Shown here piece after piece: positions 15,999 to 63,071 of a stretch of 64,000 bases of DNA. The DNA is taken from positions 1 to 64,000 of the forward strand of contig JAEUTI010000005.1 in NCBI GenBank assembly GCA_016788065.1, read 5' to 3'. Source of the stretch: Bacteroidia bacterium. GTDB taxonomy: Bacteria > Bacteroidota > Bacteroidia > AKYH767-A > OLB10. Both the position numbers and the translations under genes were made by a program. Numbering within the stretch: position 1 is the first letter of the stretch; each line of letters opens with the position of its first letter. The notes beneath the pieces were generated by a model. It was not told the origin of the DNA, ran no database searches, and saw nothing but the letters and a program-made list of their open reading frames with translations.

Positions 15999-16046
15999 TT
16001 AATTTTTACCTACTCTGTCCGCTTTTCGGCTTCCGCGTGCTTTTAG

Positions 16047-18447: not shown

Positions 18448-20019
18448 TTAATGTGCCACTACAAACTTTATTCTCTTCAAAGTATCGTTTGTGTTAACTT
18501 CAGCAAAATATATTCCTTCATTCAGTTTTGAAACAGCAATTGAAACACTTCCGGAATTGTTTTCGATAATTTCCGGCTTTATAAATCTTCCGGTTATATC
18601 ATAAATTGCCGTAACTGTTAGTTCTGAATTTTTATCGTGACTAATAGTTACCACATCCGAAGCTGGCGAAGGAAACACATTAGTATTTAATTTTTCCATA
18701 TCGTCTTCAAATCCTACGCCCAGACAAGCATCTGATAATGTTGTAAATGATGCGATACCTAAAGATGGTGTTGCAGATGTAACAGAAAATGCAGCAGCTG
18801 TAGCCTGAAGGGGATTGATTACAGGAATTATGGCTGATGCAGTCATTGGATATGAATTATCTGCACACATATCGAACTGCGTATTGGTTTTAATCATTGC
18901 GGCATAACCACTTCTGCTTCCGGCAGTGATTATATCCCCAGCAGCAGTGAGTTGCACATCATAAACTGTTTCGTAGGTATTATTTGAAACAATGATTTTT
19001 GACCAGTTCAAATTTCCGGTTGAGCCATCCGCATTCAAAACAATAACATGTGTTTGTCCACCTGAAACATTCTGATTCGCTTCTCCTGTCGCAAGTATAC
19101 TTCCATCAGGTAAAATCACAAGTGAGTATGCTTGTTCCGCCTGCAACTGACTACCTGAATATTTATTCGACCAAAGTATGTTTCCGTTATTATCCATTTC
19201 AAGCAACATCACAGCATATGGGTCGATGTTATTGATGTACCTTCCGCAAAGAACCAAATTGCCATTCTGTCTTTCTTTCATATCATAAACAAAATAACCA
19301 AGACCCGGATCAGATAGCCACTTACTCCATATCACATTGAGGTTGGTATCGAGTTTAACCAGTCCGGCAGTTTCAATTGAAGTCCCGTTATCAGCATAGC
19401 CGCAAATCAAAATACCGTTTCCGCTAGTGGAGATTATATCGAGTGCACTGAAGCTGGTACCCAGACTAACGAGTTTCTGATCTACCAAATTACCTGAAGC
19501 ATCAACTTTGATCACACAAACATTATTTATAAAGGTGGACGTATTGCTTGCGGTTCCAACCATATAATAATTTCCGGCAGCATCCTGGCAAACAGATCGA
19601 CTGTTGAATGAATATCCTGCTGATGAAAAAGATTTGATCCATGAAATATTACCCACAATATCTGATTTGAAAAGAGTGAGCTGTCCGGCGAAGGTAGCTG
19701 CATCTATCAGTTCAGCAGCATATGCAAGCTTCCCGTCGATGGTAGGGATCACACCTGATATGCGGTTATATCCTGCAACCGGATAAGTAACAATTTGTTG
19801 CACCACTCCTGTTGCAGAAGTTCTGGCAATAAGAAAATGACTGTCAAAGCTAAGTGCTGAAGATCCTCCGGCAAATACGTACCCGGTGGGTGCAGGACTG
19901 CATGTATAAAACAAAGAACCAGCAATACCGGCATCATCAAATTGTTTGTAGAAATCAGTTTGTGCCCATGAAGACACGGATAAACTGGTTAGTAAGAGTA
20001 GAAGGTAGATGTTTTTCAT
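18448..20019 (-). CDS. Secreted propeller-like protein with T9SS domain
   Basis: 523 residues. The signal peptide (ending SSWAQ, about 20) is followed by repeats of the kind GNISWIKSFSSAGYSFNSRSV, GNLVLCGRYINNIDPYAVMLLEMD and GSILATGEANQNVSGGQTHVIVLN. These match the PQQ/kelch-like or SBBP-type beta-propeller proteins common as T9SS cargo. The T9SS type A domain (VFPSPASDVVTISHD to LKRIKFVVAH) is intact, with the turn FPSPA in place of YPNP. Its promoter carries a CAATACCC palindrome shared with three other promoters in the window. The ligand and role are unknown. Confidence 0.85.
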   Translation of the reverse strand: MKNIYLLLLLTSLSVSSWAQTDFYKQFDDAGIAGSLFYTCSPAPTGYVFAGGSSALSFDSHFLIARTSATGVVQQIVTYPVAGYNRISGVIPTIDGKLAYAAELIDAATFAGQLTLFKSDIVGNISWIKSFSSAGYSFNSRSVCQDAAGNYYMVGTASNTSTFINNVCVIKVDASGNLVDQKLVSLGTSFSALDIISTSGNGILICGYADNGTSIETAGLVKLDTNLNVIWSKWLSDPGLGYFVYDMKERQNGNLVLCGRYINNIDPYAVMLLEMDNNGNILWSNKYSGSQLQAEQAYSLVILPDGSILATGEANQNVSGGQTHVIVLNADGSTGNLNWSKIIVSNNTYETVYDVQLTAAGDIITAGSRSGYAAMIKTNTQFDMCADNSYPMTASAIIPVINPLQATAAAFSVTSATPSLGIASFTTLSDACLGVGFEDDMEKLNTNVFPSPASDVVTISHDKNSELTVTAIYDITGRFIKPEIIENNSGSVSIAVSKLNEGIYFAEVNTNDTLKRIKFVVAH

Positions 20020-20032
20020 TTTGTTTTTTTGT

Positions 20033-20083
20033 CAAAGGTATGGCGGTGGTAAAGCCTGCACAATACCCGTAGGAAGGTAAAAC
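20033..20083 (-). promoter_or_regulatory. Promoter with shared palindromic operator (site D)
   Basis: On the minus strand the -7 box TACCTTTG is at 20033-20040, and the operator-like element is at 20061-20083. Plus-strand reading of that element gives CAATACCCG, then GGTAAAAC. The near edge of the CAATACCC half-site is 20 nt from the -7 box, where a -33 TTG is expected. This spacing is the same at 53.6, 53.9 and 59.1 kb. The distal arm is the poorest match of the four. Confidence 0.6.
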
Positions 20084-51680: not shown

Positions 51681-53567
51681 TTATTCCTGTTGAGCTTCTT
51701 GTTCGAGTTTCCTTTTCTCCATTTCACGGTCTTCTTCTGTTGTTCTTATCACCGATGGTTTTCTAACCACTTTATTCAAAAGTTCATTTCGCTCAGTTTC
51801 CGTATATGTTTTAGACGTTCTAAGATTTTCAGAAGCAACTTTCCCGGCAGCAATCCAATTTACTGACAAATTTGAAACATCATCAGTAGCCACAACGGTA
51901 AAACCTGATGCCGACACTTCTTTAACAAACACGGATACCAATGCGTTTACCGGAGAAATAGTTACTACCGGAATGGAACTTCCTGAAATCGCCGCCGCAA
52001 AGTCTTCTGAAAAGGGAATGAAAGTTTCACGTCCTGTGATTGTGCTTTGGCCGAAATCAGTCACGTTTTTTGAAACATTCTTTAGCTTCTCAAATTTTTC
52101 ATCCAGCTCCTTTACAGCATTTACAAGGATATAAGTCAATGCTCCATTATTCACATCAAAATAAGTTTCTCGGGTATCAAGATCCCTGGGATTCGGAGTA
52201 TATTCAAATGTACTAACCATATAAGGAGTTGCCTCTTTTAATTCCTGAGCTATAACCCCAACAAAGTATTCATCTTTAGGGGTTGAAGCCTTTCCATTGT
52301 ATTTATAGTATACAGGCTTAATTTTGGTTAATGTTTCTAAACCATCTTTGAAGGGTTTTATGTCTGATTTCAATCGTTCATCAGAAATAACAGTCCATGT
52401 GCTGGTTCCGGGTTTTCCTGCATCATCAAATGCCAATTGCAAATCGCGGGTTCCATTGTTTGAGAGATTAATTGAAAATTGAGCCGAATTCACACCATTA
52501 TTAAAGTCGGTAGTATTGGAGAAATCTTTAAAATATTCGATACTTCCTATTTGACAAATTGTGCCCAACGCTCCGTTATTTCGTGCACGGAATACAATGG
52601 TATCAGCGCCACTAAAACTAAATACATCTAGTTGTGCAAATGGATTTGTTACATTGATTCCAACCTGCCCGTTTGCTTTAATTCTTGCGCGGTTAACATT
52701 ATTTGTTCTGAAAACAAAATCCACCAGATCTGTTGTTCCTGCAAAATTCGTTGTTGCAATTGTACCAGTATTTCCAGTGGTTTCCCATCCTGTTCCATCA
52801 CCTAATAGTGGTCGCCAGATGGTTCCATCGAAATACATAAATTGATTTGTCACAGTTTCAAATACCAATAACCCTGTAGCTGGTGCCACTATTGCCAGAC
52901 GTTGTGCAGAAGTCAGACGAGGAATCAATACTCCTTTGGCAGTTGCGGAAATATCCAATACAGCAGATGCATTTGGTGCGGCATTATTTATTCCAACCGC
53001 AATATCATCACGCACAAATAACATAGATGCTAAAACTGAATTTCGAATGTTTAAGGATGATGAAGCGTTTGTTGAACCAGTACCCGTAACCACTAATTTT
53101 GAAACCGGGACTGCTGTACCAATTCCTACATTTCCCGTTGACAGAATCCGCATTCGTTCAGTACCGGTGGTTCGCATTACGAAATCTACAGCATCGGTTG
53201 TCCCAATAAAGTTTGTTGTCGCAACCGTTCCTGCATTCCCAATGGTTAACCAACTATCGTTTGTTCCTGTATCTCTGAAACGATTCCATGCAGCACCGTT
53301 CCAATAGTAATAGCCTGGTGTGACATTATTAGGAAAGACTCCGGCAGTAGCAGAATTATAAACCATTAGTGAAGTTGCCGGTGCAGTAATTGGAGCTGCA
53401 ACTATTCTTGAGGTTAGTGCCACACGTGGAACTAATAACCCGCGAACCGGGTCTGTTAAATCTAATAAGGCACTTGGATCAGGGGTTGAATTATTGACTC
53501 CAATTCCTTGGGAATATCCGGCAATAGTAATCCAAATGAATAATGTTGTGAGCAGAACTTTTTTCAT
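51681..53567 (-). CDS. Tail-fibre-like protein with S74 intramolecular chaperone
   Basis: 628 residues from the Met at 53567 (MKKVLLTTLFIWITIAGYSQ, a clear signal peptide). The frame is open 48 codons further up to 53711, but that stretch includes the promoter and has no signal peptide, so I reject it. The body has four beta-fibre blocks with NAAPNASAVLDISATAKGVLIPRLTSAQ and ATTNFAGTTDLVDFVFRTNNVNRARI, like phage tail fibres. The S74 autoproteolytic chaperone domain is ISDERLKSDIKPFKDGLETLTKIKPVYYKYNG with FVGVIAQELKEATPYMVS. A cytoplasm-like C-terminal extension of about 120 residues follows. It is probably a surface fibre. Its promoter carries operator site C. Confidence 0.88.
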   Translation of the reverse strand: MKKVLLTTLFIWITIAGYSQGIGVNNSTPDPSALLDLTDPVRGLLVPRVALTSRIVAAPITAPATSLMVYNSATAGVFPNNVTPGYYYWNGAAWNRFRDTGTNDSWLTIGNAGTVATTNFIGTTDAVDFVMRTTGTERMRILSTGNVGIGTAVPVSKLVVTGTGSTNASSSLNIRNSVLASMLFVRDDIAVGINNAAPNASAVLDISATAKGVLIPRLTSAQRLAIVAPATGLLVFETVTNQFMYFDGTIWRPLLGDGTGWETTGNTGTIATTNFAGTTDLVDFVFRTNNVNRARIKANGQVGINVTNPFAQLDVFSFSGADTIVFRARNNGALGTICQIGSIEYFKDFSNTTDFNNGVNSAQFSINLSNNGTRDLQLAFDDAGKPGTSTWTVISDERLKSDIKPFKDGLETLTKIKPVYYKYNGKASTPKDEYFVGVIAQELKEATPYMVSTFEYTPNPRDLDTRETYFDVNNGALTYILVNAVKELDEKFEKLKNVSKNVTDFGQSTITGRETFIPFSEDFAAAISGSSIPVVTISPVNALVSVFVKEVSASGFTVVATDDVSNLSVNWIAAGKVASENLRTSKTYTETERNELLNKVVRKPSVIRTTEEDREMEKRKLEQEAQQE

Positions 53568-53593
53568 TGTTAGTAAGGGGGGATTATAAGTTT

Positions 53594-53644
53594 CAAATTT
53601 AAACCTGCTGGCATGGCGAGTCAATACCCGAATTGGGGTATTTG
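53594..53644 (-). promoter_or_regulatory. Promoter with palindromic operator (site C)
   Basis: The -7 box TAAATTTG (53594-53601) is exact. The operator is 53622-53644 (plus strand CAATACCCGAATT, then GGGGTATTTG), a palindrome with arms CAATACCC and GGGTATTTG. The near edge is 20 nt from the -7 box, overlapping the expected -33 position. This is the strongest symmetry of the four sites. Confidence 0.68.
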
Positions 53645-53720
53645 CTATCAACAAAATCACTAATACTAGTGATTTTGTTGTGCTATTCATCAAATTATCG
53701 CCTTTTGACATTTGTCACAT

Positions 53721-53912
53721 TCACTTAATGATTGAATTTTCCAGTCCATATCGAATCAGCAATGCCGTATTCTTTAGTCCCAGTTTTCGCAAAATATTTT
53801 TACGATGGGTGCTTACGGTCTTATGACTTATATCCAACTTCTCTCCAATCTCACGGTCAGTCATGCCGTCTGCAATCAATTGCGTTACTTCAATTTCTCT
53901 GGGTGATAACAT
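53721..53912 (-). CDS. Solo LuxR/NarL-type DNA-binding protein, receiver-less
   Basis: 63 residues, consisting only of the LuxR-type HTH (LSPREIEVTQLIADGMTDREIGEKLDISHKTVSTHRKNILRKLG). An in-frame TAA is two codons upstream, so no receiver domain is lost by a wrong start. By hand, 27 of 61 aligned residues match the HTH of the response regulator encoded 190 nt upstream, including the recognition helix TVxTHRKN. A receiver-less copy could compete for the same sites or act as an unregulated activator. Its promoter carries operator site B. It lies between the two-component operon and the tail-fibre operon. Confidence 0.85.
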   Translation of the reverse strand: MLSPREIEVTQLIADGMTDREIGEKLDISHKTVSTHRKNILRKLGLKNTALLIRYGLENSIIK

Positions 53913-53934: not shown

Positions 53935-53985
53935 CAAAAATGCTGCGATTTAAAAACAGGGACAATACACCAAAAACGGTAATTG
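53935..53985 (-). promoter_or_regulatory. Promoter with palindromic operator (site B)
   Basis: The -7 box is CATTTTTG (53935-53942, one mismatch). The operator is 53963-53985 (plus strand CAATACACC, then CGGTAATTG). The near edge is again 20 nt from the -7 box. Autoregulation of the solo HTH gene is possible. Confidence 0.6.
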
Positions 53986-54099: not shown

Positions 54100-54756
54100 C
54101 TAAATCAGTTTATTATCAAAAGCAAACTTAACCAATGCCGCGGTGTTGGGAACTTTTAGCTTAGCCAGCATGTTTTTACGATGGGTATTAACTGTTCGAT
54201 CCGATAAAAATAAGGTTTCAGCTATCTGGCCATCTGTTAACCCTTCAGAAATTAATTTCAGAATTTGTCGCTCCCTTTCCGTAATTATACTCTCTGAAAA
54301 ACGAATATAGGCTGTTTTCGATTTGTCTGAATTAACGGAATCTCCAAACAAATGCGATAAGGAAGGAGTGATGTAAGTGTTGTTCTTTAAAACGGCTTTA
54401 AAGGCATGAATTAAATCTTCGGGACCTGAATTTTTAAGTACATATGCATCTGCACCGGCTTTTAGTGCTTTACCTACCATCGAAGGATTATCAAGCATGC
54501 TTACTATAATAATTTTTACATCCTTACAAACCATCTTGATCTCTTTGGTCGCCTCAATGCCATCAATTAATGGCATATTGATATCCATCAAAACTATATC
54601 ATACTCTCCATGCCTGCATTTCTCAATAGCTTCCTTACCATTAAGAGCAGTTCCACTTACATCCAGATATACCTCATCCTGAAGAATATGCCTGATTCCT
54701 TCAATAAATAAACGGTGATCATCTGCCACCAGTAATTTATACTTTTGTTGTTGCAT
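54100..54756 (-). CDS. NarL/FixJ-family response regulator
   Basis: 218 residues from the Met at 54756 (an ATG at 54774 would add six residues and overlap the kinase gene further). The receiver (about 1-115) has the acidic pair in VADDHRLF, phospho-acceptor D58 (VLMDINMPLIDG), the conserved S/T in IIIVSML and K in YVLKNSG. The LuxR-type HTH (about 150-215) reads ITERERQILKLISEGLTDGQIAETLFLSDRTVNTHRKN. It is the cognate of the overlapping HisKA_3 kinase. I infer that it binds the CAATAC(A/C)C palindromes nearby. It overlaps the end of the kinase gene by 20 nt. Confidence 0.94.
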   Translation of the reverse strand: MQQQKYKLLVADDHRLFIEGIRHILQDEVYLDVSGTALNGKEAIEKCRHGEYDIVLMDINMPLIDGIEATKEIKMVCKDVKIIIVSMLDNPSMVGKALKAGADAYVLKNSGPEDLIHAFKAVLKNNTYITPSLSHLFGDSVNSDKSKTAYIRFSESIITERERQILKLISEGLTDGQIAETLFLSDRTVNTHRKNMLAKLKVPNTAALVKFAFDNKLI

Positions 54757-56626
54757 AGCTGACAGGTATTTCAATTATTGCTCTGAATCCATTCTCGGGC
54801 CGGGTATCCCATTCAACAAAACCACCCATTGCAGATGCCCGGCTTTCAACATTGCTCAATCCGTAACCTCTTTTTATTTTTTGTATGTCGAAGCCTTTCC
54901 CATCATCTTCATATAACACCACAAATGAATCATCCCTTACCAATAATTCCAGAGTAACTTTACTTGCTCCGGCATATTTCAAAGTGTTATTAATCAACTC
55001 CTGTGTTATTCTGAAAACTGTGTGTTCCAGTTTGTATTCCAGTCGCTTCTCTATACCATGATGTGATAACGAAAAATTTATCAGTTGTAAATGATTTACC
55101 TTGTTAACCAGTTCTTCCGTTGCAACTATTATTCCTTTGTCTTGCAAGGTAGAAACCTGTAAATCATCCATGATCCTTCGCAGGTCTGTAATTGATCCAT
55201 CTATTAACGAAAGTGAATTGTCAATTATAGTTTTGGTATCTTCATTTTTATCATTCGCCTTGATCTTGCTAAGATACAGTTTTGCCGTCGACAACTGAGC
55301 ACCCAAATCATCGTGCAACTCAGAACTGATACGTTTACGTTCATTCAACAATGCTTCCTGAGATTGTATGGTGCGCTTTAACTTATATCGATTGAAGAAT
55401 AGTCCGAAAAATACAATTATTACAACTATTCCTGAAATGAGTACCAGCTGCATCATGCTTTTCCTATCAAGCTGCTGCTGCTGAATTTCTTTATCCTTAT
55501 TCAGCAACTGAATTTGATTCTCTTTCTTCTCCGTTTCATATTGTGTTTGCATCTCTGCAATTGCTTCTGCTTTAGAAATGCTAAATACCGAATCGTTGTA
55601 TGATATGTATTGCTGTTGATATTTATAGGCTTCTCTAAAATCACCTTTTGCAACATATTGTACAGCCAGCTCCATAGCATTCTTTGCCGACAATTGGATA
55701 TCTCCAATAGCTTCCGAATGCATCAGACTCTGCTTGAGGTAATATACAGCACTATCGGGCTTATTCATCTTCCCAAATAAAATCCCCAAATTACCATAAT
55801 CAATTGCAGCTGCCGGCACATCTTCCTCTTCCAAATGGTAGAACAATGACTGCTTCATGTAGTAAACTGCACTATCATAAACATCCATACTCATAAAAGT
55901 AGTTGCAAGATCGCCGATAGCATAATACCGGTTTCGGTCATCTTCTAAAATAGTAGCAATGGCAATGGCTCTGCGATAAATTGGCAATGCTGATGTATAT
56001 TCTTTCTTAGCATACCAAATTCCCCCTTCGTTGATTAAACATTTCAAGACACCGGTTGAATCTTCCTCTTCTTCATATAGCGCTCTTGCCTGATGGTTAA
56101 ATTTCAAAGCCAATTCAAAATCACGGTTCTTTTCATATGCAATTCCAATATTCATGGAATACATTGCCTGAGCAGATTTTAATTTTAATGATTCAGCAGA
56201 TTTTAAAGCTTTCATTAAATAAAAAGAGGCCGAGTCATACTCCGCCATCTTACTAAATACCATTCCTATATTATTGTAAACCCGGGCAATCAGATCCTGA
56301 TCACCAATTTGCAAACGATATGTTAAACTCTTTTTGTAGTCTGCAATCGCCTGCTGATAATTGCCCGCATCTTTAGCTATGATTCCCAGCCGCACATAAC
56401 CATCGCCAAGCCCTTGCAAATAGTTAACCGGTGTCGATAATTCTATGGCCTTCCTGGCCAGCAATTCAGCTGTATCGGGATTCTCTTTCAACAATGCAAA
56501 ACTTTCAGCATTTAAATTATTGATAAATGCTGTATCCGCTTTACCCGATTGTGCAGCAATATTACCGGCATATAAAAGTATAGCCAAGAAAAGTAATCGC
56601 AACAACCTCTTGATTTCAGAACTCAT
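54737..56626 (-). CDS. HisKA_3 sensor histidine kinase with TPR sensor
   Basis: 629 residues. A signal/anchor segment (ending NIAAQS) leads about 300 residues of TPR repeats (AIADYKKSLTYRLQIGDQDLIARVYNNIGMVFSKM and similar). A coiled coil and one membrane helix (MMQLVLISGIVVIIVFFGLFF) follow. The HisKA_3 domain has SELHDDLGAQLSTAKLYL with phospho-acceptor H438. The HATPase shows QELINNTLKYAGAS and EDDGKGFD, then GYGLSNVESRASAMGG. The layout matches NarX-type kinases with a periplasmic TPR sensor. It pairs with the response regulator that overlaps its end. Promoter not identified. Confidence 0.95.
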   Translation of the reverse strand: MSSEIKRLLRLLFLAILLYAGNIAAQSGKADTAFINNLNAESFALLKENPDTAELLARKAIELSTPVNYLQGLGDGYVRLGIIAKDAGNYQQAIADYKKSLTYRLQIGDQDLIARVYNNIGMVFSKMAEYDSASFYLMKALKSAESLKLKSAQAMYSMNIGIAYEKNRDFELALKFNHQARALYEEEEDSTGVLKCLINEGGIWYAKKEYTSALPIYRRAIAIATILEDDRNRYYAIGDLATTFMSMDVYDSAVYYMKQSLFYHLEEEDVPAAAIDYGNLGILFGKMNKPDSAVYYLKQSLMHSEAIGDIQLSAKNAMELAVQYVAKGDFREAYKYQQQYISYNDSVFSISKAEAIAEMQTQYETEKKENQIQLLNKDKEIQQQQLDRKSMMQLVLISGIVVIIVFFGLFFNRYKLKRTIQSQEALLNERKRISSELHDDLGAQLSTAKLYLSKIKANDKNEDTKTIIDNSLSLIDGSITDLRRIMDDLQVSTLQDKGIIVATEELVNKVNHLQLINFSLSHHGIEKRLEYKLEHTVFRITQELINNTLKYAGASKVTLELLVRDDSFVVLYEDDGKGFDIQKIKRGYGLSNVESRASAMGGFVEWDTRPENGFRAIIEIPVSYATTKV

Positions 56627-56740
56627 ATATGTGTTTCAGCCTACTAATATAAATGATTTTTTGCTATTCGTGTGTTGTCTGAATTATATTTCTGGTCAAA
56701 TTAAAGTGGATTCTATTCTTACTCAGGTAATCAATCACCA

Positions 56741-57004
56741 TCCTTCGATCCGCCAGCCGGCGGACTCAGGGCGACGCTTGCCACTTGCCACTCTTTGACT
56801 ATGCTCAGGGCAGCGCTTACAATTCGTCACTTGCCACTTGTCCCTTGCCACTTGTCACCCATCGGCTTCGCTCAGGGCGGCGCTTGCCACTTGTCACTTG
56901 CCACCCATCGGCTTCGCTCAGGGCGGCGCTTGTCACTTGCCACTTGTCACTTGCCACTTGCCACTTGTCACCCATCGACTTCGCTCAGGGCAGCGCTTGC
57001 CACT
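56741..57004. repeat. Compound tandem repeat array (26-bp core plus heptamers)
   Basis: Three good and two diverged copies of a core of about 26 bp (CCCATCGGCTTCGCTCAGGG plus C(G/A)GCGC; best at 56858-56883, 56904-56929 and 56971-56996, diverged at 56741-56777 and 56792-56816) alternate with runs of a heptamer, CACTTGC or CACTTGT. Core and heptamer runs abut directly. All three forward frames stay open here, giving chance peptides like LRSGRRL, so no gene is implied. Core-like sequences of this type (GCTTCGCTCAGG) are dispersed in many Bacteroidota. A second copy of the core is at 62264-62290. Confidence 0.85.
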
Positions 57005-57040
57005 AATGTGCACTTACATTTTTTTACTTAAGCACACCCA

Positions 57041-57074
57041 TCATCAAATCATCAAATCATCAAATTATCAAATC
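57041..57074. repeat. Octamer tandem repeat TCATCAAA
   Basis: Three exact copies of TCATCAAA and one TTATCAAA, then TC, ending 10 nt before the stop codon of the 57084 gene. Upstream, TTTTTTACT and AGCACA link it to the 26-bp array. The same order occurs at 62264-62399. Confidence 0.8.
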
Positions 57075-57083
57075 AATCGTAAT

Positions 57084-57752
57084 TTATCCTTCACCTGAAG
57101 CATCACCTTCTGAACCATGTGTGGTTCCGTGACCTTTTCGATCGACATTGCCATCTGAATCCAATATAATTACCTCAACAATTATATTCTCAAGTACCGG
57201 GTCATAACCTGTTTCGGAATTCAAAATCTGATTGTGGTCATAAAATCCTCCACTTCCATCACCTGTGATTTTATACGTCAGAATGACACGTGCCTCATAA
57301 GTATCAAAATTCTCAGGAAGCTCAACCCTTTCTAACTTGACATCCATTGGAATATCAGTAGCAATGTTTACTTGCACCTCATCTGTACTGTTAACTTTTA
57401 GAAAGGTATAGGGCACAGGGTATGGAGCATTTCCTTCGGTTGAAAAATCACCATCCAAAGGTTTCACTGTATGAAAGCCAAGTAATCTTCCATTCTCATC
57501 ATGTAATCTGACGGTGGTTTTTTCCATAGCACGCATTTCATCATTCATTCGAATCTGCATTGGAAAATCTCGTTGTACTCCATCTTCATCGTCAATGAAA
57601 TAATCGAGGAAAACAGTGTCTTCATTATATGAAATTATTGGTGACTCCTCTGTAAATCCATGGTTTTCTTCTATCTTGTAGATGAATTTTATAATTGGTT
57701 CACTTTCGCTTTTGTCAACCCATACATAGGGCTTATTGGGAATTAAGTTCAT
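57084..57752 (-). CDS. Uncharacterised partner of the subtilase
   Basis: 222 residues, acidic, no signal peptide or membrane helix. It begins MNLIPNKPYVWVDKSESEP and contains two beta-rich blocks (about 45-120, with RDFPMQIRMNDEMRAMEKTTVRLHDENGR; and 125-190, with VEVIILDSDGNVDRKG). It ends in a Gly/Ser/Glu-rich tail (HGSEGDASGEG). I do not recognise a family. The start is 10 nt after the stop of the S8 peptidase gene, so the pair is probably one operon. A role as substrate, inhibitor or chaperone of the peptidase is possible but not shown. Confidence 0.75.
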   Translation of the reverse strand: MNLIPNKPYVWVDKSESEPIIKFIYKIEENHGFTEESPIISYNEDTVFLDYFIDDEDGVQRDFPMQIRMNDEMRAMEKTTVRLHDENGRLLGFHTVKPLDGDFSTEGNAPYPVPYTFLKVNSTDEVQVNIATDIPMDVKLERVELPENFDTYEARVILTYKITGDGSGGFYDHNQILNSETGYDPVLENIIVEVIILDSDGNVDRKGHGTTHGSEGDASGEG

Positions 57753-57762
57753 GGCAGGCAGG

Positions 57763-58932
57763 TTATATTAAATTTAAAGATTTGTAAATATTTAATCTGG
57801 TGTATCGCATCTTGTCGTAAGAACGATTTGCCGGAGCCAATTCATTGGTTACCGGATTTAGAGGGCCAACGTTCTGAAATACGTCACATCCATCATGAAG
57901 AGCATCCTTCAGTTTTTCCAATGGCATCAGTTGTTTGGTATTCATCATCCACTTTTGCTGCATCAATATTATTGCACCTGATAGAATAGCTGCTGATACA
58001 CTTGTTCCGGATGTGATAGAATATACAGCATCCGGATCATTAGAATTGTTTAGTGAAACTGAACATGCTCCGGGAGCAAAAATTAATTTTTCATTTACCC
58101 CCTTAAACATTCCTAAAACATCATGCAGAAATGGTGACCGGTACCGCTGAGAAAATGTTGTAATTGCATTTGTTGGTAGATTTTTAAACTGATAATTAAA
58201 GTGTGCTCCCGCCGCAATTACATCCGGATGAAATGCAGGATATCCCAGTCCATCTTCTCTAACAAACTCAAATGCATTGCCTGCAGAAACTACTACCGGT
58301 ATATTCCGTTCCTTTAATTTACGAATCGACTCAAAAATTCTATGCTTTCCAAATTTTGATTTATTAACCTGTGCATCCAATCCGTTAAATGAAATATTCA
58401 CCACACCAATTTTTGCATTGGATCCTGTTCCTTCATCCAGCAACTGATGTACTTTTTGTAGCGCAAGATAAATTGATTTCCACGTGGCTGAACCCGACTT
58501 TTCATTCGTGACTTTTATGGAAATTATTTCTGCATCAGGTGCGATGCCTATGCAAGAAATTTTCGAATCTTTTGCAGCAATAATTCCTGCCATGTGCGTA
58601 CCATGTCCATAATTATCATTTACATCACTCTCGTTTCCATTGGTCGATAACCGGAGTTTTATGTTTCTCCTTAGCATCTGATGCTCAAAAATTCCCGAAT
58701 CTATGATTACCACACTAATTCCTTTACCCGTTAATTCAGGATGATGCTTTCTGACACTATCCAACATCGTTTGCTCTTCGGTAAGAGTATCACTTGTTAT
58801 GTTATGTATTGGTATTGGTTTCTGTAATGCCGGTAATCCCTTTGGCATGGTATACCTATTAGCATATTTCCCTCTGTACAATGGCTTTAATTCACTGTAC
58901 ATTTTGCCGTTAAACTTTAAAAATGGACCCAT
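57763..58932 (-). CDS. Subtilisin-like (S8) serine peptidase without signal peptide
   Basis: 389 residues. The catalytic triad reads D78 (VVIIDSGIF), H110 (GHGTHMAGII) and S311 (SGTSVSAAIL), with the oxyanion-hole N219 (SAGNAFEF). All S8 key residues are present, so activity is expected. The first 70 residues hold a short pro-like region but no signal peptide, Tat motif or lipobox, and no sorting domain follows. The enzyme is therefore predicted to be cytoplasmic, unlike most subtilases. A second uncharacterised gene follows 10 nt later. Its leader has two promoters, one carrying operator site A. Confidence 0.9.
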   Translation of the reverse strand: MGPFLKFNGKMYSELKPLYRGKYANRYTMPKGLPALQKPIPIHNITSDTLTEEQTMLDSVRKHHPELTGKGISVVIIDSGIFEHQMLRRNIKLRLSTNGNESDVNDNYGHGTHMAGIIAAKDSKISCIGIAPDAEIISIKVTNEKSGSATWKSIYLALQKVHQLLDEGTGSNAKIGVVNISFNGLDAQVNKSKFGKHRIFESIRKLKERNIPVVVSAGNAFEFVREDGLGYPAFHPDVIAAGAHFNYQFKNLPTNAITTFSQRYRSPFLHDVLGMFKGVNEKLIFAPGACSVSLNNSNDPDAVYSITSGTSVSAAILSGAIILMQQKWMMNTKQLMPLEKLKDALHDGCDVFQNVGPLNPVTNELAPANRSYDKMRYTRLNIYKSLNLI

Positions 58933-58998
58933 AATAAATTGATTTAGATTAAATTAGACAGATTTTCGGATATTCATGCAGCAGATGCTCATCCTGAA

Positions 58999-59006
58999 CA
59001 AACATA
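58999..59006 (-). promoter_or_regulatory. Proximal -7 box for the S8 operon
   Basis: TATGTTTG on the minus strand is an exact -7 match 67 nt before the start codon. No palindrome lies at its -33 position. Confidence 0.5.
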
Positions 59007-59071
59007 ATAATTAGTTTAATCGTACCCTAATTAAGTTATATGCACAAGTTTGTATCATGCTATTTCCTTCG

Positions 59072-59123
59072 CAAATCTCCCAACTTGCAAAAAAGTGGGC
59101 AATACACCAAAAGGGGTATATTG
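59072..59123 (-). promoter_or_regulatory. Distal promoter of the S8 operon with palindromic operator (site A)
   Basis: The -7 box is GAGATTTG (59072-59079, one mismatch). The operator is 59100-59123 (plus strand CAATACACC, then GGGGTATATTG), the longest of the four with arms of 8 bp and GGGC/GCCC extensions beyond. The near edge is 20 nt from the -7 box. A transcript from here would have a leader of about 130 nt with only two short reading frames (15 and 18 codons). Confidence 0.58.
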
Positions 59124-59237
59124 CCCATCTATCAAAACCTACAGTTTGAAATCAGCAACACGGCAATATTGCTGGAGTTGTAGTATAGCCCAATAATTAA
59201 AAAGCCGTTCTTTTGACACACACATTATTAAAGGCAC
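59124..59237. other. Spacer between the S8 operator and the PKD gene
   Basis: Rest of the gap 58933-59237. AAAAGCCGTTCTTTT (59200-59214) is a short imperfect hairpin past the PKD gene stop on the minus strand, too weak to call a terminator. No gene is seen. Confidence 0.4.
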
Positions 59238-61853
59238 TCACCTGATAAGCGCCAGCGTTCCATTTCGAGAATGTGTATTTCCATAAATATCTTTAACCTT
59301 TGCAAACCAGGTATAAATTCCTTCCTGCATTTGACCTTTGTTGTCATATCCGTCCCATACAGGATTCACTTGCGAGCTATTAAATAATATCTCGCCCCAG
59401 CGATTGCAGATATAAAATTCCAGTTCACTAACTGCAACTCCCGTTACACCATAAAAATCGTTTATGCCATCGCCGTTAGGTGTGAATGCATTCGGAAACC
59501 AGATGGCAAATTCCTCCAGAATTTCAACCGGCTTAATTGTTACTGCACTACATCCATCCCCTGAAACAGTTCTCAATTCGGTATAATATATACCTTTGCC
59601 GGGAAATTTATGTTTGGGATTTTCTTCCTCTGAAATAGCTCCATCCCCAAAATTCCAATACCTGCTTACCGAATTACCTGAACGATCAATAAATTGTACA
59701 TCCGGCATGATCGCTGTTCCCGGTTGTAATGTATATGTAAAATCAGGATCGGGTAATGGGAATGCAGTTATTTCATTCTGACGAATCAGCGTGTCTCTGC
59801 AACCATACGAAGAGGTACTGATTAATTGAACCGGATAAGTTCCTGCTGTGAATGTGGTCATTGGAATTTCTTCGGTCGAGACTACTCCATTCCCAAAATC
59901 CCATTCATAGGTAGTTATGTTTCCACTTGGGCTTGTAGATGTTGGAGTAAAATCAACTGCTAAAGGTTCACATCCTGCATTTAGAGAAGCAGTAAAATCT
60001 GAAACCGGCAATTCCCAAACGGATACTTGCCTTGTAATAGAATCAATACAATTTAAATCAGATGTTACTATGAGCTGAACATCATATAATCCCGGAGCAG
60101 CATAGGTGTGCCATGAAGCTGCATAACCATTTTGAATTGAACCATCTCCAAATCGCCATTCACGTTGCAAAATGTATCCTGTACTGACTTCGCTTTGATC
60201 CAGAAAAACCGCTGGTGACTGATCACAGGCTGAGTGAGATTCAAAATCTACTTCTGGCAAGTCAGGAACAATCACATCCATGTTTTGTACTGTTGCAACT
60301 CCATTCCACGAATACATCGTTATAGTAACCGGATAAGTGCCAGGCTGAGGAAAAGTATGCATCGGACTAACAGTAGTGTCAGGCATACTGCCATCATTAA
60401 AATTCCATACAACAGAAAACACAGGACCACAGCTGATATCAAATAAAGTTGAAAAAATAACTTCCGTCGTTTCACAATTTGACTGATAAGTTACGTTTGC
60501 TGCAGGTTCAATTCGCGGAAGTAAAAGCTTTTGCATGGAGTCACGGCACCCATGATCCGATTCCACATACAAAGTAACCTCAAATGGTCCAGGTGTTGTG
60601 AAAATATGTTGAGCATTGGAAGTATATAGATTGGAAGTGGTATCACCAAAATCCCAAATGTATTGTTGCAGTGTTCCGGAAATAATTGATGAGGTGCTAC
60701 TGAAATAAGAATTATCATCAATGCAACCCGGAACGAAAGTAAAATCAACAACAGGTGCAGGCCATATATAAATATTCCTTTCCAGTGTGTCGCTGCAATT
60801 CGAATTGAACACAATCAATTTCACAGTATAATTCCCGGGAGCATTATAAATATGAACCGGATGCTGGTCGCTTGAAGTATTGCCATCACCAAACTCCCAA
60901 AGCCATTGCTGAATTGGTGTTCCTGTCAATACATAACTTGAATCAATAAAACGGGCTTCATTCATACAAGCAACAACTTCATAGAAACTGGCATTCAGGT
61001 TAGTAGGCATAATGGTTGTATTCAATGTAACCTGACAACCGGTAACTGAAGTCATTGTCACTGAATAAGTACTTCCCAAAACAGGATTTATTAAGGTCAC
61101 ATCAGGTAATGTATCACCATTACTCCATAGGTAACTTGCAAATCCTACCGGTGCATGCAATGAAATTGTGTTAGCTCCCGGACATAAATCACTTGAAATG
61201 GTAAAGGGACTGCAAAAGCAATCTATATAAGCATAACCAAAATGTCCGCCAACTCCACAATCGGCGGTAGTAAACTCGATGGTTATTTGTTGACCTACGT
61301 AGGCAGATAGTTCTATTCCAACAGTTGTCCACGGTTTTATTCGTAAATCCCCAATACTGACAAATCCCGGAATCGTTCCACTTGCAACAACATCATAGCT
61401 GCCACAGTTAACCGGATCATTATTCTGATCAAAAACACGAATTGAAAAACGGGGTTGCTCACTTGGTCCGTGTCCCGGATCTTCAAGAACTACTGCATAG
61501 CGATAAATAAACAATGCCTGATCAGGTGTTACTAAAAAAGTATAGGAAAGTCGTTCAGCCTGCGCGCCAACATTGGAATTACCTAATCGTGCACTAAACT
61601 GGCCACCTGGAGCCACCAAAGGAATTAATCCCTGAGATTGCGGATCAAATCCCGGGCCCGAAACAATTGTGTGCCTTCCGCTTACAATTCCATTCATGGT
61701 TGTATTTACGGGACAACAATTGCCGATCATTCCGGTCCAGTTGCTGAAATTATTTAATTCAAAATCTGAATTTGTACAGGAGCTGACTGTTTGAGCAGTG
61801 CTGGTTGTTGCAGCTAATAACAAGAGCAAACACACATGATAATATCGCTTCAT
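59238..61853 (-). CDS. Large secreted PKD-domain protein with type B T9SS sorting domain
   Basis: 871 residues from the Met at 61853 (MKRYYHVCLLLLLAATTSTAQ, a good signal peptide); an upstream Met at 61892 is rejected because it gives none. An N-terminal jelly-roll domain (about 20-215) leads to six or seven PKD repeats, each with the W(E/D)FGDG...(V)HIY motif (WLWEFGDGNTSSDQHPVHIY, YEWDFGNGVVSTEE, RYWNFGDGAISEEENPKHKF). The C-terminal about 90 residues (WFPNAFTPNGDGINDFYGVTG to EGIYTWFAKVKDIYGN and LALIR) are the CHU_C/gliding-associated type B sorting domain. It should be exported by T9SS and attached at the surface, probably as an adhesin. Confidence 0.92.
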   Translation of the reverse strand: MKRYYHVCLLLLLAATTSTAQTVSSCTNSDFELNNFSNWTGMIGNCCPVNTTMNGIVSGRHTIVSGPGFDPQSQGLIPLVAPGGQFSARLGNSNVGAQAERLSYTFLVTPDQALFIYRYAVVLEDPGHGPSEQPRFSIRVFDQNNDPVNCGSYDVVASGTIPGFVSIGDLRIKPWTTVGIELSAYVGQQITIEFTTADCGVGGHFGYAYIDCFCSPFTISSDLCPGANTISLHAPVGFASYLWSNGDTLPDVTLINPVLGSTYSVTMTSVTGCQVTLNTTIMPTNLNASFYEVVACMNEARFIDSSYVLTGTPIQQWLWEFGDGNTSSDQHPVHIYNAPGNYTVKLIVFNSNCSDTLERNIYIWPAPVVDFTFVPGCIDDNSYFSSTSSIISGTLQQYIWDFGDTTSNLYTSNAQHIFTTPGPFEVTLYVESDHGCRDSMQKLLLPRIEPAANVTYQSNCETTEVIFSTLFDISCGPVFSVVWNFNDGSMPDTTVSPMHTFPQPGTYPVTITMYSWNGVATVQNMDVIVPDLPEVDFESHSACDQSPAVFLDQSEVSTGYILQREWRFGDGSIQNGYAASWHTYAAPGLYDVQLIVTSDLNCIDSITRQVSVWELPVSDFTASLNAGCEPLAVDFTPTSTSPSGNITTYEWDFGNGVVSTEEIPMTTFTAGTYPVQLISTSSYGCRDTLIRQNEITAFPLPDPDFTYTLQPGTAIMPDVQFIDRSGNSVSRYWNFGDGAISEEENPKHKFPGKGIYYTELRTVSGDGCSAVTIKPVEILEEFAIWFPNAFTPNGDGINDFYGVTGVAVSELEFYICNRWGEILFNSSQVNPVWDGYDNKGQMQEGIYTWFAKVKDIYGNTHSRNGTLALIR

Positions 61854-61892
61854 AATATCCGGTTTTAGGTCACAAAAAACTCTAAATCCCAA

Positions 61893-62134
61893 TTACCCTT
61901 CGTAGTGATAATCAGGAAAACCATTTTTATGATACGCGCATCTAAAATGTGAAATGAAAGTAAATAAAAAAATAACTCCGTGTAAATTATTTGATCAACT
62001 ACTCTTTTCTGTTTGTGAATAGAGTTATTTGGTAGGTGATGAAATAAAGTTAAGATTATTAATTAACAGTATTGATTTATTAATCAGTTTTCGGTTGCTA
62101 AACGAATTTATTGCAAACATAATTTCATTCACCT
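61893..62134. other. Intergenic AT-rich region before the PKD gene
   Basis: Nothing gene-like was found. It holds the upstream region of the PKD gene (start 61853). No -7 box of TAnnTTTG type was convincing here. Confidence 0.5.
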
Positions 62135-62293
62135 ATGAATAAATTGTATTGGTCACATGGGGACTCCATTTCACCTAAGAAAAACGAATACAACTTACTC
62201 TCCACTGAACCAGAACTAAAGCACGATTCAGGACACGAAACAGAACAGTTAGATTATTGGTCACCCATTCGACTGCGCTCAGGGCGGCGCTGA
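62135..62293 (+). CDS. Possible 52-residue open reading frame
   Basis: An ATG-started frame of 52 codons with a normal polar composition (MNKLYWSHGDSISPKK, later HETEQLDYW). Its last residues (SPIRLRSGRR) are encoded by the dispersed 26-bp core repeat, so the end is not selected as protein. No -7 box or other support was seen. It is more likely chance than a gene. Confidence 0.2.
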   Translation: MNKLYWSHGDSISPKKNEYNLLSTEPELKHDSGHETEQLDYWSPIRLRSGRR

Positions 62294-62399
62294 TTACTGT
62301 TTAATGATCACTGTTCAATTGCCACTCAGGTTCAGAAACACTTTTTTACTCAGGAACAAAAAATCAGCACATAAGCACATCATCAAATCAGCAAATCAT
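62264..62399. repeat. Second copy of the compound repeat block
   Basis: Core copy CCCATTCGACTGCGCTCAGG plus GCGGCGC (62264-62290). It is followed by TGATTACTG and TGATCACTG units (62291-62319), TTGCCACT, TTTTTTACTCA (62342-62352), AGCACATAAGCACA and then octamers TCATCAAA and TCAGCAAA (62380-62395). It ends 6 nt before the stop of the nitroreductase gene. The module order matches 56741-57074. Confidence 0.75.
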
Positions 62400-62405
62400 T
62401 TGCAG

Positions 62406-63071
62406 TCAGTACTTAACACAAACTTCACTTAGTCCCTTTCTTTGTATATCTGGAACTAAGGTCTCTTTTTCAGGATATCCAACCGGAATCAACAAAAAAG
62501 GCTTTTCATTTTCAGGTCGCTTTAAAATTGTATTTAAAAAATTCATCGGACTTGGTGTATGTGTTAGTGCAACTAATCCACAATAATGAATTGCTTCCAA
62601 TAACATTCCACATGCAATTCCTACCGATTCCGTAACATAATAGTTCGAAGTTTTTTGACCGTTTTCTAAGTTATAGGATTTTCTGAATACCGCAATCAAA
62701 AGAGGAGCCGTTTCCAGAAATGGCTTCTGCCAATTGGTTCCCAGATGCGCGAGATCCTTCACCCATTCATCTTTCATCCTGCCATGGTAGCTTAAATATT
62801 CTTCCTCTTCCGCAGCTACTCGTATTTGAGCCTTTATTTCCTGATTGGTCACCACACAAAATATCCAGGGCTGCTTATTGGCCCCCGATGGTGCTGTTGA
62901 TGCCGATAAAATTATATGGTCAATGGCTTCCATTGGAACAGGGTCGGGAGAAAAATTTCTTACTGTCCTTCGGGTATTTAAGTACCGGTAATGTTCCTCA
63001 CTTCGCTTAATGGTCTCCTGATCTGAATACCGGACATGATGATAAGGTATAAAGGAATAATTTTCTTCCAT
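62406..63071 (-). CDS. Iodotyrosine-deiodinase-like nitroreductase
   Basis: 221 residues of the FMN-dependent nitroreductase fold (opens RRTVRNFSPDPVPMEAIDHI). An insertion EEEEYLSYHGRMKDEWVKDL...TNWQK (88-116) aligns with the active-site lid of iodotyrosine deiodinase. E91, Y95 and K116 sit exactly where the human enzyme has the zwitterion-binding E157, Y161 and K182. THTPSPMNFL (171-180) covers the loop that holds the FMN-interacting threonine. The family reductively removes iodine or bromine from halotyrosines, and a homologue has been studied from Haliscomenobacter. Deiodinase activity is therefore a good hypothesis, but other ligands are possible. It is a single gene with its own -7 box. 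Confidence 0.9.
   Translation of the reverse strand: MEENYSFIPYHHVRYSDQETIKRSEEHYRYLNTRRTVRNFSPDPVPMEAIDHIILSASTAPSGANKQPWIFCVVTNQEIKAQIRVAAEEEEYLSYHGRMKDEWVKDLAHLGTNWQKPFLETAPLLIAVFRKSYNLENGQKTSNYYVTESVGIACGMLLEAIHYCGLVALTHTPSPMNFLNTILKRPENEKPFLLIPVGYPEKETLVPDIQRKGLSEVCVKY

Follow-up and report, generated by a model that had tools for sequence, protein, structure and literature searches.

Genes of the locus

The window is the whole stretch of DNA analysed, 64,000 nucleotides of contig JAEUTI010000005.1 of a Bacteroidia bacterium. Near its end lies a gene for an S8 subtilase without export signals, predicted to be cytoplasmic (57763..58932, minus strand), which encodes 389 aa with a net charge of +11 and a pI of 9.35. 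It is followed after 10 nt by a gene for an acidic protein of 222 aa (57084..57752, minus strand), here called the partner. The subtilase matches PF00082 (Peptidase_S8) in Pfam over residues 69-327 with an E-value of 4.9e-29, and the domain score of 102 bits against a curated cut-off of 21.8, together with the D/H/S triad, assigns it to family S8. D78, H110 and S311 align with the triad of solved subtilisins (phmmer, intracellular serine protease); the top PDB match is an intracellular protease, with extracellular proteases almost tied. In the S8 consensus GTSMAxP a proline usually follows the active serine; the residue at that position is alanine in this subtilase. Ahead of the domain there is only an N-terminal segment of 68 aa, in which Pfam recognises no propeptide domain. 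The structure model of the subtilase (pLDDT 36) is too poor to judge. A dN/dS of 0.093 relative to the sister genome indicates purifying selection.

The N-terminus of the subtilase is not hydrophobic, and neither is that of the partner, the maximum KD(12) being 0.22 and 0.19, respectively, versus 2.3-2.9 for four neighbours. In-frame stop codons occur 8 codons 5' of the annotated start of the subtilase and 6 codons 5' of that of the partner, so that a longer form with a missed signal peptide does not exist for either. Pfam found no T9SS sorting domain on the subtilase or the partner; the upstream PKD gene carries CHU_C. The complete triad without signal peptide or sorting domain, and the intracellular location that the initial annotation had derived from it, are both supported by these features.

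With a net charge of -26 and a pI of 4.33 the partner is the most acidic of the 45 proteins of the window. The best Pfam matches have E-values of only 0.21 and 0.28, and there are none in NCBIfam or PADLOC (E ≤ 1) or in PHROGs (0.1); PF12690 (BsuPI/IPI) gave no match at E ≤ 1. The description of an acidic protein of no known family directly after the subtilase is thus confirmed. The dN/dS of 0.079 relative to the sister genome indicates purifying selection and therefore a real protein. Seven of the 222 residues differ in the sister, all inside residues 20-131, and the Gly/Asp-rich tail (residues 205-222) is identical. The structure model consists mostly of strands at low confidence (pLDDT 43, pTM 0.43), and fold searches with it yielded no solid match (best Foldseek E-value 0.04, best VIA Z 4.5). 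Repeats (CTCAGGGCGGCGCTTGCCACT and longer) at 56765-57004, 3' of the partner, vary in length relative to the sister; a similar piece seems to be present near 62280.

A two-component system lies further along the same strand. It comprises a TPR sensor histidine kinase (54737..56626, minus strand) with HisKA_3 and HATPase_c domains, in which the N-terminus is hydrophobic and a membrane segment lies around residue 394, and a NarL-type response regulator with REC and GerE domains (54100..54774, minus strand), the proposed ligand of site A described below, whose best solved relative is NarL (4.3e-29). A stand-alone GerE protein of 63 aa (53721..53912, minus strand; PF00196, 1.4e-19) has a site A of its own. 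The next gene encodes an S74-domain protein and is annotated at 51681-53711 (minus strand); it very likely starts at 53567 (MKKVLL...), since a third site lies between the two positions and the frame in the sister begins at the equivalent ATG. Elsewhere in the window, the Rfam cis-regulatory motif DUF805b at 16007-16039 (minus strand; 39.7 bits, gathering score 35.6) is the only Rfam match at threshold.

Site A and the subtilase promoter

Site A (59103..59118, minus strand) has the sequence TACCCCT-TT-TGGTGTA and lies in the subtilase promoter. The shared operator plus promoter extends over 59118-59072 (minus strand) and consists of TACCCCTTTTGGTGTATTG (59118-59100), 24 nt and TTTG. Site A directly abuts the Bacteroidota -33 TTG, and the predicted promoter core (59072..59102, minus strand) contains this TTG at 59102-59100, the 24 nt and the TTTG at 59075-59072; the -7 box (GAGATTTG) is imperfect. 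The predicted +1 is at about 59067, which gives a leader of 135 nt. A second -7 box (TATGTTTG; 58999..59006, minus strand), with a leader of about 62 nt, is kept in the sister and has no -33 TTG. Two promoters had been proposed, one of them with the operator and a leader of about 130 nt, close to the 135 nt given here. Upstream of the second -7 box (58999-59030, minus strand) is an inverted repeat, TAATTAG...CTAATTA, perhaps another operator.

NarL binds preferentially to inverted heptamers with 2 bp between them, and site A resembles its engineered 7-2-7 site TACCCCTAAAGGGGTA, as given in an excerpt of the literature (PMC4549865). With the flavobacterial -7 box placed at -12 to -5, as in the available part of a second source (PMC9723704), the centre of the 7-2-7 repeat falls at about -43.5, beside the -33 TTG. 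Inverted heptamers of the form TAC.... 2 bp apart occur at three sites in this genome (G000) and at two in G030, a genome of another family, and the operator can now be assigned by sequence to a known class, NarL-type 7-2-7.

Of the 305 intergenic nt that separate the PKD gene from the subtilase, 7 differ in the sister, against a dS of 0.18-0.42 in the surrounding genes, so that selection probably acts on more than the operator. Rfam gave nothing at gathering score in this stretch, matches being at chance level only. From the PKD gene to site A, at 59130-59200 (minus strand), almost every one of about 70 nt agrees with the sister; the segment has no Rfam match and is possibly a small RNA or a further operator. 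None of 200 shuffles folds as well as the stretch 59085-59200 (z -3.69), mostly through the contribution of the hairpin around site A.

This hairpin (59096..59127, minus strand; 32 nt) has a 13-bp stem and a 6-nt loop, is followed by CTTTTTT, and stands at the right place and on the right strand for an intrinsic terminator of the PKD gene. That site A is a mere terminator with letters shared by chance is nevertheless very improbable: repeats of this type, again 24 nt from TTTG, stand ahead of non-orthologous genes both in G030 and in the window, and controls are near zero. On this recurrence of repeat and spacing we reject termination as the sole function, although hairpin and T-run may in addition end transcription of the PKD gene.

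Further copies of the site in the genome and the order

A copy of site A with a promoter, TACCGTTTTTGGTGTATTG-N24-TTTG, precedes the stand-alone GerE gene (53935..53981, minus strand), and a third site, TACCCCAATTCGGGTATTG-N24-TTTG (53594..53640, minus strand), precedes the likely start of the S74-domain gene and has an equivalent in the sister. The third site was found with a weight matrix that was built on four sites and ignores the 24-nt spacing to TTTG; its score was 15.8 versus 15.4 for the best of five shuffled windows, and the spacing still matches. The degenerate form TACNNNNNTTNGNGTATTG-N24-TTTG, written after these sites had been seen, occurs in exact form three times in the 4.26-Mb genome, always at this locus and before the subtilase, GerE and S74-domain genes, and not once in the reversed control; two further sites have one mismatch. 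The spacing from TTG over 24 nt to TTTG is identical at all exact sites in G000, G001 and G030.

A scan of the order with at most one mismatch gave 32 matches (10 exact) in 16 of 42 genomes, versus 2 control matches. A GerE/REC gene is present within the 3-kb locus in 15 of 30 loci (of the 32 matches), and in 9 of 22 (7 of 20 distinct places) when the eight discovery loci are left out; two of the six source sequences of the HTH search profile come from these site loci. The figure for control loci is 0 of 24, although these controls were unmatched and had been fetched for other reasons. As 13 of these 22 loci lack a GerE/REC gene nearby, part of the one-mismatch set is due to chance or differently placed. 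In G030 a kinase-regulator pair adjoins a stand-alone GerE gene with one site on either side, the second of them ahead of the following gene. In G005 and G012 two sites about 280 nt apart flank a stand-alone GerE gene, and in G019, G016, G034 and contig C24 of this genome the site follows a kinase-regulator pair. The genes 3' of such sites are mostly secreted or surface-bound in appearance.

The inner palindrome pairs are only partial, with a mean of 2.1 of 4 in the 12 sites that we assigned to a regulator-linked group versus 1.0 in 13 others. The narrow pattern TTTTGGTGTATTG, followed by TTTG after 23-25 nt, was at chance level in 345 genomes of the class, with two single matches besides the two own sites versus three in the control; the stray matches are in G003 (inside a coding frame) and G617 (L045). 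The half-site variant therefore appears to differ from system to system.

Two of the one-mismatch sites of this genome are described separately. One, TACCTTCCTACGGGTATTG-N24-TTTG at 20033-20079 (minus strand), is just 5' of a T9SS-sorted gene (18448-20019); no GerE/REC gene was found inside its locus, and G001 has a similar site (C141). At the other (L076; G000:C24:36154-36200) a second kinase-regulator pair is followed by the site and then by a gene with beta-propeller repeats.

Distribution of the pair

Close relatives of the pair were found solely in one other searched genome of the genus, with 95% and 97% identity. In this sister genome (public as MAG KLAP29, L009) subtilase and partner have the same gene order. 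At 1e-20 the subtilase has matches in 2 of 100 relatives, both in the genus, and in none of 22 other listed genomes of the family; at 1e-12 it has matches in 8 of 394 genomes of the phylum, its own included, the best other being 1.2e-16. Three of the seven other subtilases of the phylum were inspected by eye. L034 (518 aa) has no obvious export signal, and L038 and L039 start like lipoproteins; no partner-like gene was seen beside any of the three, and a search with the partner gave no match there.

The partner has no matches in plasmids, phages or viral contigs. For the subtilase there was no match in viral contigs, and 36 phage records all had less than 60% identity. The plasmid relatives examined are from Agrobacterium, Pseudoalteromonas, Paenibacillus and Acinetobacter, and the Acinetobacter protein resembles an ordinary secreted subtilase. 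Four weak matches of the partner among 149 relatives (0.003-0.008), three of which (L003, L004, L006) we take to be translation factor IF-2, were treated as chance, as were nine more, mostly of the same residues, in frames of 878-1013 aa. Neither a pair homologue with a signal peptide nor a partner without its subtilase, the two refuting cases named in the initial annotation, came to light, which is a weak test with a pair known only from two genomes of one genus. Literature searches aimed at the operator and at the protease pair found neither the site nor the pair in print.

Regulation of the pair and role of the partner

The pair is quite probably regulated by the adjacent system via site A, and the adjacent TPR histidine kinase and NarL-type regulator are the most likely controlling system, because the exact sites occur only at this locus and the same device stands beside NarL-type kinase-regulator genes elsewhere. 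Control by a shared operator, as initially suggested, is supported by the site scans of the genome. A position near -43.5, beside the -33 element, is usual for an activator, and we infer activation rather than repression. The kinase would sense something at the envelope and phosphorylate the regulator, which, perhaps with the stand-alone GerE protein, would bind the 7-2-7 repeat near -43.5 and recruit RNA polymerase at three promoters, those of the subtilase, the GerE gene and the S74 gene. Subtilase and partner would be co-transcribed as a two-gene operon, the outcome being a burst of cytoplasmic protease, and the acidic partner, translated from that mRNA, would most likely bind the basic protease and keep it inactive or limit it, as a cognate inhibitor. 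This whole explanation is put forward tentatively, above all in respect of the inhibitor.

That the partner is a cognate inhibitor is a first guess based on the charges (pI 4.33 versus 9.35), the protease-first order with 10 nt between the genes, and a precedent in Bacteroides, where C10 proteases are described, in the portion of the source available (PMC3462683), as having genes for staphostatin-like inhibitors 4-5 bp downstream, transcriptionally coupled. The charge complementarity is weak evidence, acidic proteins being common, and the searches turned up neither a functionally characterised homologue nor a solid fold match, which counts against the guess. Added support comes from the low-confidence partner model (pLDDT 43), mostly strands; IPI of B. 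subtilis is an all-beta inhibitor of intracellular subtilisin, although its inhibitor role there is unsettled, according to extracts of a paper that also calls intracellular peptidase inhibitors rare (PMC3901451). The parallels with Bacteroides and B. subtilis are analogies.

Among the roles considered for the partner the order is inhibitor, substrate, adaptor. As a substrate it would be cut by the subtilase, for example to free the Gly/Asp-rich tail as the active product; the dedicated adjacent pair and the tail identical in the sister fit this, yet the whole protein is conserved and not just the tail, there is no export signal, and the reading appears rather unlikely. The initial suggestion of peptide maturation found nothing beyond proximity in its favour, as none of the six Pfam-scanned neighbours (54100-63071) is peptide-modifying. 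An adaptor that delivers substrates to the subtilase, or a folding helper that matures it, is less probable still: the short N-terminal segment of 68 aa without a propeptide domain would leave room for help in trans, but nothing supports it directly and a signal-less relative in Microvirga (L041) instead adjoins a trypsin-like gene.

Two further readings were considered. A toxin-like or defence module, whose protease would be freed in the cell under stress, is suggested by the use of subtilases, trypsins or CHAT proteases in conflict systems, by PADLOC matches of the subtilase ('subtilase' 8.5e-15, IetS 8e-7), by distant relatives next to CHAT, trypsin and nuclease genes (Agrobacterium) or a trypsin gene (Microvirga), and by the patchy occurrence in one genus only. 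Generic subtilase similarity accounts for the PADLOC matches, however, and the controlling two-component system is shared with a surface-protein-like gene. In the IetAS defence system an IetA-type AAA ATPase adjoins the subtilase, but Pfam found no such ATPase, and no mobile or defence genes, among the neighbours at 54100-63071; we regard the defence reading as improbable. That the subtilase reaches the outside through lysis, vesicles or a similarly uncommon path and acts there would agree with the mostly secreted or surface-bound appearance of the other genes 3' of such sites, but with no export signal on either protein it is most improbable.

If the partner is an inhibitor, it may be the founding member of a new family of proteins that inhibit intracellular subtilases, and the pair would be a lockable cytoplasmic protease released by an envelope-sensing two-component system, a switch for programmed proteolysis run by an order-wide cassette (histidine kinase, NarL-type response regulator, stand-alone GerE gene and 7-2-7 sites at a fixed place) with different targets. 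This wider proposal is speculative and, as a whole, doubtful. Intracellular proteases need restraint and few intracellular inhibitors are known, so that a dedicated pair governed by a single identifiable switch offers a clean test. In the wider view, links between regulators and their targets could be read directly from the genomes of the order by means of NarL-type 7-2-7 sites that keep a constant distance to the Bacteroidota promoter and adjoin kinase-regulator and stand-alone GerE genes.

Comparison with known systems

Like Isp1 and IPI (BsuPI, PF12690) of Bacillus, the pair combines a signal-less subtilase with a separate, possibly all-beta candidate inhibitor. The partner differs from IPI in having no PF12690 match and in being encoded adjacently, longer and very acidic; the fold of the BsuPI/IPI family is Ig-like and all-beta, and the partner model, although mostly strands, is too weak for a fold comparison. 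Bacillus-type intracellular subtilisins have no signal peptide, as found here, and their short N-terminal extension carries a LIPY/F motif; on reading residues 1-68 of the subtilase this motif was absent. The closest plasmid protein by E-value among the matches listed is an S8 peptidase of Microvirga sp. VF16 plasmid pMVF16-4 (WP_203447528; 2e-23, 28.9% identity), which is likewise signal-less, has 381 aa and shares the short N-terminal pattern S.L.PL(F/Y)...P..KP. Its neighbour, in contrast, is a trypsin-like protease, and a homologue of the partner is absent from the plasmid collection.

The layout of a protease gene directly adjoined by a small partner gene is shared with the C10/staphostatin-like pairs of Bacteroides (btp/bti, bfp/bfi), as reported in sections of PMC3462683. 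It is also that of staphopain-staphostatin and SpeB-Spi. The proteases of all these pairs are of the cysteine type and have leader peptides, whereas the protease here is a predicted cytoplasmic serine protease, and the partner is longer than their inhibitors and matches no known inhibitor family.

The regulatory part is comparable to NarX/NarQ-NarL of E. coli, with which it shares the REC-GerE regulator, the inverted heptamers 2 bp apart and the TACCCCT half-site. The place of the site upstream of the start is similar to that of the NarL sites of napF and yeaR, so far as these are covered in the excerpted text of PMC4549865. It differs in that the kinase is a TPR kinase and not a nitrate sensor, that the promoter is of the Bacteroidota type, that an extra stand-alone GerE gene is present, and that it is predicted to control a protease pair and an S74-domain protein.
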